40,948 bases of DNA from positions 1 to 40,948 of the forward strand of contig JALELS010000027.1 of the NCBI GenBank assembly GCA_022768065.1. The letters are read 5' to 3'. This DNA comes from Ruminococcus sp. (GTDB lineage: Bacteria; Bacillota; Clostridia; Oscillospirales; Acutalibacteraceae). A program made the position numbers and the translations under genes. This document shows positions 25,093 to 30,531 of this stretch, one piece after another. The notes under the pieces were generated by a model. The model did not search any database. It was not told the origin of the DNA and worked only from the letters and a program-made list of their open reading frames with translations. How positions within the stretch are numbered: the first letter of the stretch is position 1; each line of letters starts with the position of its first letter.

Positions 25093-25110
25093 AATAGCGT
25101 TATAAATGAT

Positions 25111-25152
25111 GTTATCGCCGAAGAAACGAAAGCTTACCTTCGGTTTGATAAC
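25111..25152 (+). promoter_or_regulatory. leader hairpin of the glmU-like operon
   Basis: GTTATC-G-CCGAAG (25111-25123) pairs with CTTCGG-TTT-GATAAC (25138-25152): two six-pair helices with a small internal loop. It lies between the promoter and the ribosome binding site (GGGAG near 25170) and lacks a T run. Confidence 0.6.
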
Positions 25153-25183
25153 AGAGCATAAATTTGTTTGGGAGAGTGTTATT

Positions 25184-26422
25184 ATGGCTCTTAAAATGGG
25201 TGCGGTAATAATTGCCGCGGACGGCGGAAACCAAAAAAAACCGATGTATATGAATGAGCTGTTATCGGTACCGCTCATTTCATACGTTTTGTCATATTCC
25301 GCGTCGGGTGATGCGGAAAAAACGGCGCTTGCCGTTAAAAGTGCCGATTTTGTTCCCGACGGTATAAAGGACGGTGTTGATGTTTTTGTATCGCCGAACG
25401 CCGAGAGCGACAGCGATTATCTTCTTTCGGCAGTCGATTATATAAGAAATTTCGACTATATATATGTACTGTACGGCAATGTGCCGCTCCTCAGCGGAAA
25501 ATCGCTCAAAAACGCTCTGTCCATTTGCACCTCGGAGGAGGCAAAGGCGGCGGCAATCTTTTCAAGACAGCCGTCGGGTGAAGAAATGATAGGCGCATAC
25601 GTTTTTTCGTCCGATATACTCGTTTCACTTTTAAAAGACGGGGCGCATTCAGCCGCAGAGCTGTTTTCCGAAGTCTGTAAAAACGGCGAAAAGACGGCAA
25701 AATATGATACGCAGTCTTTTTCCGAGACTCTGCCCGTGTATGATATGCGCTCGCTTCATAATATATCGGAGATACTTCGCATAAGCGAAATCGAGCGGCA
25801 GCTTGACCGCGGCGTAAATATACCGTGCTTTGACGGTGTTATGATATCTCCTGGTGTTAAAATAGGCGAGGGTACTTTGATTTTGCCGGGCACGGTGCTC
25901 AGCGGCAAAGTGACAATCGGTAAAAACTGTACCGTGGGGCCGAATACGATTCTTCGCGATACCGTTGTAGGCGATGACGCATATCTTAACAGCGTTCAGA
26001 GCTTTGACGCAAAGATAATGAGCGGAGTAAATATAGGTCCGTTTGTTCACATAAGACCGAATTCCGTTATAGGCGAAAGGGTGCACCTCGGAAACTTCGT
26101 CGAGGTGAAAAATTCCAATATAGATACCGGCACAAAGGTTTCGCACCTTACGTATGTAGGCGACAGCGACGTCGGCAAGAGAGTAAACTTCGGCTGCGGA
26201 ACGGTCACCGTAAATTATACGGGTAAAGCCAAGTTCAGAACCACCATAGGCGACGACGCCTTTATAGGCTGCAACACAAACCTTGTAGCTCCCGTAACGG
26301 TGGGCGACGGCGCGTATACCGCGGCGGGCTCTACCATAACCGAAGATGTTCCCGGCGATTCGCTCGGCATAGCGAGAGCGCGTCAGGTAAATAAAATAGG
26401 CTGGTGCCTCAAAGATAAATAA
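25184..26422 (+). CDS. glmU: GlmU-like protein: intact acetyltransferase, degenerate uridylyltransferase domain
   Basis: A 412-residue protein (GlmU is usually about 450-460). The C-terminal left-handed beta-helix keeps the glucosamine-1-phosphate acetyltransferase residues: R291 and K309, the catalytic H321 in HLTYVGD, and NYTGKAKFRTTIGDDAFIGC in parts N344-Y345 onward. The N-terminal half has lost the nucleotidyltransferase signature: LAAGxGTRM reads IAADGGNQK, the PKVL lysine is M21, and YGDVPL reads YGNVPL (N99). It can probably acetylate but not make UDP-GlcNAc. The ATG at 25184 with GGGAG upstream is preferred to 25106. It heads an operon with pth and mfd. Confidence 0.82.
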   Translation: MALKMGAVIIAADGGNQKKPMYMNELLSVPLISYVLSYSASGDAEKTALAVKSADFVPDGIKDGVDVFVSPNAESDSDYLLSAVDYIRNFDYIYVLYGNVPLLSGKSLKNALSICTSEEAKAAAIFSRQPSGEEMIGAYVFSSDILVSLLKDGAHSAAELFSEVCKNGEKTAKYDTQSFSETLPVYDMRSLHNISEILRISEIERQLDRGVNIPCFDGVMISPGVKIGEGTLILPGTVLSGKVTIGKNCTVGPNTILRDTVVGDDAYLNSVQSFDAKIMSGVNIGPFVHIRPNSVIGERVHLGNFVEVKNSNIDTGTKVSHLTYVGDSDVGKRVNFGCGTVTVNYTGKAKFRTTIGDDAFIGCNTNLVAPVTVGDGAYTAAGSTITEDVPGDSLGIARARQVNKIGWCLKDK

Positions 26423-27063: not shown

Positions 27064-30000
27064 ATGTCAGCATTTACAGAGGTTTTAAAGACCTCGCCCG
27101 AGTATATGACGCTCGAAAAGGCGGTAAAAGACCGAAGCCTGCCCGTGGGAGTGCTCGGAGTTTCGGGTATTCATAAGGCTCATCTCGTAAATTCGCTCTG
27201 CGGCAATTTAGGCCGTAGGGCTCTTGTCATTATGCCCGACGAAGCCGCGGCAACAAAATTTTGCGAGGATCTGTGCACCTTCGGAAAAAATGCGTTTTTG
27301 TATCCTGCAAGGGATTTTTCGTTTACCTCCGCCGAAAACCGCTCTCACGAATATGAGCAGCGCCGCATAAATGCGCTCACAAATATTCTCAACGGCACGG
27401 CGGACGTTGTTGTGTGTTCCGCCGAGGCGGCGGTGCAGAGAACCATTCCCCCGAAAGATTTAAAAAAGCATTCGCTCACGATAAAACGCGGTGAAGATAT
27501 AAAGCTCGGCGACATAACAAACGTGCTTCTCTCGTCCGGCTACACGAGAGCCGATATGGTTGAGGGCGTAGGTCAGTTTTCGGTGCGCGGAGGAATACTC
27601 GATTTATTTTCGCCCGATGACCGTAGCCCCGTCAGAATAGAGTTCTGGGGCGATACCGTCGATACCATGGCGCATTTTGACATAGCGTCTCAGCGAAGAA
27701 CGGACAATGTCGATAAACTTACGCTTATGCCGTCTACCGAGATAGTTTTTTCGGGCAACGACGAGTTAATCAAGAAAATTACCGAGTTTTACGATACCGT
27801 AAAAGGTAAGGGCGCAAAAAAAGCGCGCGAGATGCTGCAAAACGATATAGACAGGCTGAAAAACGGCGTGAATTTAAGCTCTGCCGACAAGTACCTGCCG
27901 CTCGCTTATGACGAAAACGCAACCGTTTTAAGCTATGCCGACTCTCTTTTGCTGTTTGTCTGCGAGAGCGCCGGCGTCAAAGAAAAGGCAAATGCCGCAA
28001 TAAAGCTCCAAAACGAAGACATCAAATATCTTTTGGAGGAGGGCGAGCTTTGCCGCGGACTTGACGAATTTACAATGAGCTTCCCCGAGCTTACAAGGGA
28101 ATACGAAAAAAAGGACACGGTTTTTCTCGATGATTTCGCGCGCGGCTCGTTTGATGTCCCGGTACGCGACCTCATAACATTTACCGCGTCCACGCTTCCC
28201 TCATGGAACGGAAAGCTTGACGTACTCTTAGACGATTTGTCGCCGCTTGTGCAAAAGGACTCTGCGGTTGTAGTGATGGGCGGAACCGAAAAGGCCGCAA
28301 AAAATCTTGCCGAGGATCTCGAAAACGAAGATATTCCCGCACTTTATTTTCCGCTTGAGCCTGCCGAATTTCCGCGAGGCAGGGTTTCGGTTTTGCCGGG
28401 TGCGCTGTCGGGCGGCTTCGGCTATCCGCATGAAAAATTCTATACCTTTACTTACGGCAGAAACGCCGTTGCCTCAAAAAAGCGAAAAGCGCGCAGCGGA
28501 TTTAAAAAGGGTCAGAGCCTCCATTCGCTTGATGAACTGAAGCGCGGTGACTACGTTGTGCATTCGCTTCACGGCATAGGCGTCTTTGACGGCATCAATA
28601 AGCTGGAAGTAGGAAAGATAACCAAGGATTACATCAAAATAAAATATGCAAAGGGCGACGTTTTGTATGTCCCCGTAACGCAGCTTGACCTTGTCTCAAA
28701 ATATATAGGTCCTCACGAGGACGACGGCAGAACCGTAAAGCTGAATAAAATCGGCGGCAAGGATTGGGAAAAGACCAGAAATAAGGTTCGCGCCGCCGTT
28801 AAGGATATGGCGGATCAGCTCATAGCCCTGTATTCAAAAAGGCAAAACAGCCCCGGATACGCGTTTTCACCCGATCTTGATATGCAGAGCGATTTTGAGA
28901 GAAGATTTGAATACGACGAGACGTCCGACCAGCTCAGAGCGATTGACGAAATAAAGGGCGATATGGAAAAACCGTACCCCATGGACAGACTTCTCTGCGG
29001 CGACGTCGGCTTCGGCAAAACAGAGGTGGCGCTTCGTGCGGCGTTTAAGTGCATAGCCGACGGCAAGCAGTGCGCCATACTCGTTCCCACCACAATTCTC
29101 GCGTATCAGCACTACCGCACCATACTCAAAAGATTTGACGGGTTCCCCGTTGAAATAGAGATGCTGTCGCGCTTCAGAACTCCGAAGGAGCAGGAGAAAA
29201 TACTTAAAAATTTAAAACGCGGCTCACTTGATATAATTGTAGGCACGCACCGTCTTGTTTCAAACGACGTTAAATTCAAGGACCTCGGGCTTCTTATAGT
29301 AGACGAGGAACAGCGTTTCGGCGTGGCGCAAAAGGAAAAACTCAAGGAGATGTTCCCAACGGTAGATGTTCTGATCTTGTCCGCAACACCTATTCCGCGA
29401 ACACTCAATATGGCTATGACGGGAATACGCGATATGTCCGTAATAGAGGAAGCTCCGCAGGACAGATACCCGGTTCAGACCTATGTTATCGAGCATGATA
29501 TGGGCGTTCTCTGCGAGGCAATGGAAAAAGAGCTTCGCAGGGGCGGTCAGGTATATTATCTTCATAACCGCGTCGAGTCGATAGAAAGTACGGCGGCAAA
29601 GATAAAAGAGATGATGCCGTCCGCGCGCGTAGCCGTGGCTCACGGTCAGATGGGTGAAGAGGAATTGTCGGAAATCTGGCGTGACTTGCTTGAGGGCGAC
29701 ATTGACATACTCGTTTGCACAACCATTATCGAGACGGGCGTCGATGTTCCGAACTGCAATACCCTGATTATTGAGGACGCCGACAGGCTCGGGCTCGCCC
29801 AGCTTCATCAGATACGCGGAAGGGTCGGCAGGAGCACGCGCAGAGCGTCGGCTTACTTCACATTTAAACGCGGCAAGGAGCTATCCGAGATAGCAAACAG
29901 GCGCCTTTCGGCAATAAGAGAGTATACGGAGTTCGGTTCGGGCTTTAAAATTGCCATGCGCGACCTTGAAATACGCGGAGCGGGAAATGTTCTCGGAGCA

Positions 30001-30531
30001 CAGCAGCACGGCCATATGGAGGCGGTAGGTTACGATATGTACTTGCAGCTTCTCGGCGAAGCCGTGGAAGAGGAAAAGGGCGAAAAGCCGACAAAGCGCA
30101 AAAAGGAATGCCTTATAGATATGCAGATAGACGCCCATATTCCCGATAATTATATCAAGAGTATTCCTCAGCGACTCGCGGTTTACCGCAGAATTGCCGA
30201 CATCAAAAATACCGAGGACGCAGATGACGTTAAGGATGAGCTTCGCGACCGTTTCGGCGAAATTCCGCAGTCGGTTCAGGGCCTTATAGATGTTTCGCTT
30301 CTTCGTAATACCGCCGCCGCAAAGGGTGTGTACGAAATAGGTCAAAAGGGCAATTCCGTTATACTTTACGTTAATGATATAGATACAAATACGGTTTTGA
30401 ATCTCTCCTCTATGATGCGCGGCAGAGTATCGATAATGGATTACGGCAAAAAGCATATTGCGGTCAAGATTGCCGACGGTCAGTCGCCGCTTGATACGTT
30501 GAAAGAGATATTCGGATATATGGTGTTCTGA
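27064..30531 (+). CDS. mfd: transcription-repair coupling factor
   Basis: A 1155-residue DNA translocase that removes stalled RNA polymerase at lesions and recruits UvrA. Domain order: an N-terminal UvrB-like part (about 1-460) with the FSVRGGILDLFS motif; a CarD-like RNA polymerase interaction domain beginning at GDYVVHSLHGIGVFDGI (about 494-560); a RecG-like helicase with Walker A GDVGFGKTE, the box VDEEQRFGV and SATPIPRT; the second helicase half with TTIIETGVDVPN; and a C-terminal TRCF domain. Full length, without visible defects. glxK follows after two bases. Confidence 0.97.
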   Translation: MSAFTEVLKTSPEYMTLEKAVKDRSLPVGVLGVSGIHKAHLVNSLCGNLGRRALVIMPDEAAATKFCEDLCTFGKNAFLYPARDFSFTSAENRSHEYEQRRINALTNILNGTADVVVCSAEAAVQRTIPPKDLKKHSLTIKRGEDIKLGDITNVLLSSGYTRADMVEGVGQFSVRGGILDLFSPDDRSPVRIEFWGDTVDTMAHFDIASQRRTDNVDKLTLMPSTEIVFSGNDELIKKITEFYDTVKGKGAKKAREMLQNDIDRLKNGVNLSSADKYLPLAYDENATVLSYADSLLLFVCESAGVKEKANAAIKLQNEDIKYLLEEGELCRGLDEFTMSFPELTREYEKKDTVFLDDFARGSFDVPVRDLITFTASTLPSWNGKLDVLLDDLSPLVQKDSAVVVMGGTEKAAKNLAEDLENEDIPALYFPLEPAEFPRGRVSVLPGALSGGFGYPHEKFYTFTYGRNAVASKKRKARSGFKKGQSLHSLDELKRGDYVVHSLHGIGVFDGINKLEVGKITKDYIKIKYAKGDVLYVPVTQLDLVSKYIGPHEDDGRTVKLNKIGGKDWEKTRNKVRAAVKDMADQLIALYSKRQNSPGYAFSPDLDMQSDFERRFEYDETSDQLRAIDEIKGDMEKPYPMDRLLCGDVGFGKTEVALRAAFKCIADGKQCAILVPTTILAYQHYRTILKRFDGFPVEIEMLSRFRTPKEQEKILKNLKRGSLDIIVGTHRLVSNDVKFKDLGLLIVDEEQRFGVAQKEKLKEMFPTVDVLILSATPIPRTLNMAMTGIRDMSVIEEAPQDRYPVQTYVIEHDMGVLCEAMEKELRRGGQVYYLHNRVESIESTAAKIKEMMPSARVAVAHGQMGEEELSEIWRDLLEGDIDILVCTTIIETGVDVPNCNTLIIEDADRLGLAQLHQIRGRVGRSTRRASAYFTFKRGKELSEIANRRLSAIREYTEFGSGFKIAMRDLEIRGAGNVLGAQQHGHMEAVGYDMYLQLLGEAVEEEKGEKPTKRKKECLIDMQIDAHIPDNYIKSIPQRLAVYRRIADIKNTEDADDVKDELRDRFGEIPQSVQGLIDVSLLRNTAAAKGVYEIGQKGNSVILYVNDIDTNTVLNLSSMMRGRVSIMDYGKKHIAVKIADGQSPLDTLKEIFGYMVF

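Follow-up and report, generated by a model that had tools for sequence, protein, structure and literature searches.

GlmU (TIGR01173), the bifunctional N-acetylglucosamine-1-phosphate uridylyltransferase and glucosamine-1-phosphate acetyltransferase, is commonly regarded as essential to bacteria and as a target for drugs. The glmU homologue of the window, by which we mean the whole 40,948 nucleotide stretch of Ruminococcus sp. DNA that was analysed, resembled GlmU in its domain order, its place before pth and mfd and its acetyltransferase residues; it differed in that the uridylyltransferase motifs present in GlmU were missing and in that it fell below the family cut-off. No report of an inactive GlmU N-terminal domain (N-domain) of this kind was found in the literature searched.

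Three other described systems were compared. The eukaryote-type UDPGP/UAP family (PF01704, here UDPGP) was found in none of 40 genomes, including the one that carries the window (own genome); in the class it was, like the family of a second protein of own genome, L002, commoner where the GlmU N-domain had been lost. PDB 3pnn, a 303-aa chain presumably from Porphyromonas gingivalis, belongs to the same family as L002. Its entry, named ‘Conserved domain protein’, gives no activity in the name, and we propose here that the family are UDP-HexNAc pyrophosphorylases; no report of a function for it was found in the literature searched. As far as it is outlined in PMC8106489, the bifidobacterial LNB/GNB gene cluster has NahK and GalE clustered with a class II GalT, and likewise combines these two with a UDP-sugar-forming enzyme. 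In the class loci analysed here an L002-type nucleotidyltransferase lay beside NahK and GalE.

The two halves of the window protein

The reading frame of the glmU homologue was open from 25106 to 26422, and a start at 25184 agreed with the N-termini of homologues. The features of the locus, all on the plus strand, are:

25170..25176, plus strand: GGGAGAG, ribosome-binding-site-like, ending 7 bases before the ATG at 25184
25184..26422, plus strand: 412-aa glmU homologue read from its preferred start at 25184; the longest ORF begins at 25106
25184..25819, plus strand: N-terminal domain (residues 1-212), a decayed uridylyltransferase in which the catalytic motifs are gone and approximately 31 sugar-site residues are deleted
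25820..26419, plus strand: predicted glucosamine-1-phosphate acetyltransferase domain (residues 213-412), a left-handed beta-helix that retains its active-site residues
26441..27046, plus strand: pth, which follows glmU; synteny conserved in the genus
27064..30531, plus strand: mfd; synteny conserved in the genus

The preliminary description had placed glmU at its usual position before pth and mfd, and this was borne out in the genus relatives, where pth followed glmU in 22/22 loci and mfd was matched in 21/22, the 22nd locus ending before it. The protein failed the equivalog cut-offs for bifunctional GlmU: TIGR01173 scored it at 284.6, where 366.85 is needed, and NF010934 at 307, where 450 is needed. 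The best-scoring stretch in these matches lay in its C-terminal half.

Pfam revealed no NTP_transferase domain in the protein at E values up to 1. The position of LAAGxGTRM was occupied by IAADGGNQK, that of the PKVL lysine by M21 and that of the metal-binding aspartate by N99, and the QxEQLGTGHA region read VSPNAESDSDYLLS. The spacing from the metal motif to GAYxF was 34 residues, compared to 65 or 66 in 11 related proteins, and GYGRI, E154 and N169 fell within the stretch that was missing. In GlmU numbering (R18, K25, D105, E154, N169 and N227, which we take to be that of E. coli), R18 and K25 of triphosphate binding and catalysis, GTGHA of the uracil site, the metal-binding D105 and the sugar-binding E154 and N169 were all changed or missing, and the protein failed the uridylyltransferase motif test (GxGxR, K25, QxEQLGTGHA, D105, E154, N169 and N227). 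The changes for which the preliminary description had called this half dead-looking, namely IAADGGNQK, M21, N99 and an unrecognisable QxEQLGTGHA, were all present as claimed.

Alignment of the N-terminal half with intact GlmU N-domains by hhalign gave a probability of 97.7% (E 1.4e-12), compared to 0.1-0.2% for three shuffled controls, and by this comparison the half is descended from the GlmU uridylyltransferase domain. When related N-domains were used as tblastn queries, 8/9 matched the window gene significantly, all in frame 3; the remaining query, an Enterococcus N-domain (L098), gave no significant match to it. A sequencing frameshift in glmU was ruled out because these alignments lay in one frame only, and the decay is therefore not a sequencing artefact. 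Together the data support the N-terminal half being a remnant of a uridylyltransferase, predicted to be catalytically dead.

The C-terminal half was intact, as the preliminary description had stated: R291, K309, H321 and N344 were invariant, and Y345 nearly so, in an alignment of 26 rows, and the protein passed the test for the R, K, H, N and Y residues of the beta-helix. This supports a GlmU-type beta-helix acetyltransferase whose activity is predicted from these residues.

Candidate nucleotidyltransferases in the same genome

The preliminary description had argued that the organism must obtain UDP-GlcNAc pyrophosphorylase activity elsewhere, or that the domain has a new role, and had advised a search for a second GlmU or a stand-alone nucleotidyltransferase. 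Such a need was supported by the sequence. No second GlmU was found in own genome (32 contigs, 96.8% complete): no GlmU N-domain was matched at E 1e-8, and there were only weak matches to the hexapeptide region besides the window gene. A stand-alone nucleotidyltransferase was found on contig C11, and is a strong candidate with a predicted activity:

Contig C11 of own genome (G000), 139137-140018, minus strand: L002, 294-aa nucleotidyltransferase, the sole unassigned nucleotidyltransferase-fold match in own genome

Other candidates for the replacement were rejected. IspD (L001), GlgC and GlgD each scored above their own family cut-offs, L005 was a family 2 glycosyltransferase, and a nucleotidyltransferase-phosphomutase fusion (L039) had a degenerate motif of its own. 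UDPGP was rejected for own genome by its absence from the 40 genomes; the search for it does work in the class, where it found 30/291 genomes. The GalU-like protein of own genome scored 301.2, the TIGR01099 cut-off being 326.8. GlmM was encoded on contig C24 (571.3, above the equivalog cut-off of 447.55).

Two unusual proteins were seen in this inventory. L039 (1-2205; C21, ~89.4-91.6 kb) is a nucleotidyltransferase-hexapeptide-phosphomutase fusion in which the GxGTR motif is degenerate; of its homologues, L183 (G021) was degenerate as well and L172 (G006) looked intact. L122 (142-2115, C24) is a phosphoglucomutase with a C-terminal NifU-like domain (PF01106, 41.2 bits, cut-off 27).

L002 scored 37.8 bits against PF00483 (gathering score 21.2), thus passing the test for the NTP_transferase superfamily, and its closest solved structure was PDB 3pnn, matched over near full length (E 7.3e-92). 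It retained GGLKQ, GT, NADD and SMN, which were conserved across 33 aligned homologues, and passed the catalytic-motif test of the fold in that alignment; AAGMGSR was part of the filter by which the 33 were chosen, and three dropped homologues carry it too. L002 grouped with the copy from G223, a member of its own family. A gene for NahK flanked the L002 homologue in 21/29 class loci, GalE in 12/29 and both in 11/29, these loci being the best-scoring other than own rather than a random draw. The linked kinase matched the solved NahK (N-acetylhexosamine 1-kinase) with an E value of 9.8e-95. In the order, NahK lay beside the L002 homologue in 2/6 loci, one of which had GalE as well. L002 passed the test of linkage to HexNAc-1-P metabolism on the class loci; in own genome no NahK was found within the 17 kb inspected near L002. 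Given the NahK and GalE neighbours in relatives, the gene context points most naturally to L002 as an enzyme that forms UDP-HexNAc.

In the explanation that we propose, GlmM would make GlcN-1-P, the beta-helix half of the window protein would acetylate it to GlcNAc-1-P, and L002 would then form UDP-GlcNAc with UTP. A salvage-type enzyme such as L002 would make the GlmU N-domain redundant, which would account for its decay here and for its many losses across the class. We consider it likely that the window protein is an acetyltransferase carrying a dead remnant, that L002 supplies the UDP-GlcNAc step and that redundancy drove the decay; here we infer which substrate L002 uses and which reaction it catalyses, as well as the acetyltransferase activity and the order of events.

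Decay of the N-domain in the genus

glmU was recovered from 22/24 genus relatives and was not found in G013 and G015, which were 76% and 81% complete. None of the 22 had an intact GlmU N-domain. Four proteins (group A) kept R18 and had lost K25 and N169. Nine (group B) had also lost R18, with D105, E154 and N227 kept, and three (group C) had lost the entire stretch from GxGxR to K. In the remaining six the N-domain was absent altogether. Judged from these sequences, decay of the N-domain is a genus-wide property. The domain-less proteins fell at four places on a tree of the C-domain, two of them inside group B, with some of the forks behind these places poorly supported. It is a well-supported reading of these sequences that the window gene is a half-dead GlmU, apparently en route to the domain-less form of its sister species. 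In the domain-less GlmU of G017 (L026 1495-2265), what appears to be the start of the domain runs in frame straight into its final residues, and this looks like the pattern expected from an in-frame deletion.

Searches of the 24 genus relatives found neither the L002 family nor the eukaryote-type UDPGP. Wherever glmU was recovered from them its N-domain was decayed or absent, so another enzyme or route can take its place in the genus. An additional, unassigned nucleotidyltransferase was encoded in each of two genomes without a GlmU N-domain (L175 936-1829 in G012 and L176 1929-2690 in G016).

One enzyme that could serve the genus is GalU. It is conceivable, and in our view unlikely, that GalU has broadened genus-wide to make both UDP-GlcNAc and UDP-glucose, leaving L002 as a side enzyme in one species. 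Sequences resembling GalU were seen in 14 genomes of the genus, own included. All four PF00483 matches of G008 were accounted for by GlgC-, GlgD- and GalU-type proteins and a dead GlmU N-domain, and those of G017, among the matches listed, were GlgC, GlgD, GalU and an RmlA-like protein by sequence or frame length; most of the genus nucleotidyltransferases, among the matches listed, were judged by frame length. An alignment of 22 sequences, from which 3/25 loci without an ORF by the motif filter were excluded, showed by eye no marked change between the GalU of the genus and that of relatives with intact GlmU, and a GalU of altered specificity was rejected for this reason. Moreover G030, which has lost the N-domain and is 98% complete, had among the matches listed two PF00483 proteins of GlgC and GlgD size and no GalU.

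The preliminary description had offered a new role for the N-domain, such as sensing, as the other way to account for the changes. A sensor or regulator, for instance one in which UDP-GlcNAc binding controls the acetyltransferase, would agree with the purifying selection on the N-domain of full-length relatives (dN/dS 0.03-0.26 where computable) and with groups A and B, which kept D105, E154, Y139, G140 and N227 and lost K25 and N169, and in B R18 too. These groups retain the Mg-binding and several sugar-site residues and have lost those of the triphosphate site, so the N-domain may have a binding role there. In the window protein, however, the sugar-site stretch is deleted and D105 is gone, and the sister species at four places of the tree do without the domain. 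The N-domain has also evolved faster than the C-domain: among chosen pairs, dropped if the C-domain dN was <=0.015 or identity <=75%, the median N/C ratio of dN was 1.09 for 19 pairs of intact GlmU, with a range of 0.67-2.31 that reached into the values of the groups, and it was 1.83 for five pairs of group A, 2.54 for 35 pairs of group B and 3.63 for three pairs of group C. For the window protein such a role found no support, and we regard it as improbable.

With 32 contigs and 96.8% completeness, own assembly leaves room for an intact GlmU, a stand-alone N-domain or a UDPGP in an unassembled part; this is very improbable given that none of the 22 relatives with glmU had an intact GlmU and that none of the 40 genomes, several of them 98-99% complete, had the UDPGP that the same search recovered elsewhere in the class. 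That the diverged N-domain, still recognisable by profile, is an active uridylyltransferase with relocated catalytic residues is hardly credible when the sugar-site stretch has been lost together with the P-loop arginine, the lysine, the metal aspartate and the uracil-site motif. A dead remnant whose reaction L002 would carry out remains the preferred reading for the window protein.

Association across the class

A profile (A1) made from 18 intact GlmU N-domains was run on 291 class genomes, which were searched for the L002 family and UDPGP; own genome was the sole member of its genus among them. Profile scores were bimodal, with a gap between 9.3e-52 and 4.0e-28 among the listed values, and a genome without a match better than E 1e-40 was scored as N-lost. 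The GlmU N-domain was present in 182/291 genomes and absent from 109/291, the N-lost set including genomes without any GlmU and incomplete genomes.

The L002 family was found in 66/109 N-lost genomes compared to 32/182 N-intact genomes, and UDPGP in 27/109 compared to 3/182. One or the other was present in 93/109 and 35/182 respectively (Fisher p 1.1e-29, a value that ignores descent). Shuffles within the 19 families of mixed state, which excluded G219, G308 and G323 as having no known family, showed the same association: either enzyme was carried by 51/55 N-lost and 22/69 N-intact genomes, and 0/20,000 shuffles were as high. L002 alone (39/55 and 19/69) again gave 0/20,000, and UDPGP alone (12/55 and 3/69) was not significant, with 2149/20,000 shuffles as high. 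In family f24, L002 was present in 6/6 N-lost and 0/7 N-intact genomes. In own family the N-lost genomes carried L002 (own genome, G223 and G244) or UDPGP (G265), and the N-intact genomes G202 and G319 had neither. Since N-intact genomes carry L002 too, the main task of the family may be salvage, and its preferred substrate could be GalNAc-1-P.

The open frames that held the GlmU N-domain matches in G060, G125 and G151 were just 259-263 aa long, which suggests stand-alone uridylyltransferases in some members of the class.

Neither the L002 family nor UDPGP was found in 16/109 N-lost class genomes. With the N-domain dead or gone in 22 genus relatives and neither replacement found in any of the 24, these genomes indicate that at least one further route to UDP-GlcNAc probably exists. 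The fuller picture, in which salvage-type nucleotidyltransferases have repeatedly replaced the GlmU uridylyltransferase across the class and the genus has in addition a further, unrecognised UDP-GlcNAc enzyme or route, is one that we put forward tentatively, as possible rather than probable. What would be striking in it is the repeated replacement in a class, more than the single gene, and a genus in which neither known replacement was found outside this species. The uridylyltransferase half was missing from 109/291 sampled genomes, some of them incomplete, and if other families have replaced it in most of them, inhibitors aimed at this half would miss those bacteria. Likewise, if this is true, the wrong enzyme would be named by models in which a glmU annotation is taken as the source of UDP-GlcNAc. 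The analysis offers a testable function for the uncharacterised 3pnn family, which has a solved structure, and leaves in one genus an enzyme still to be sought.
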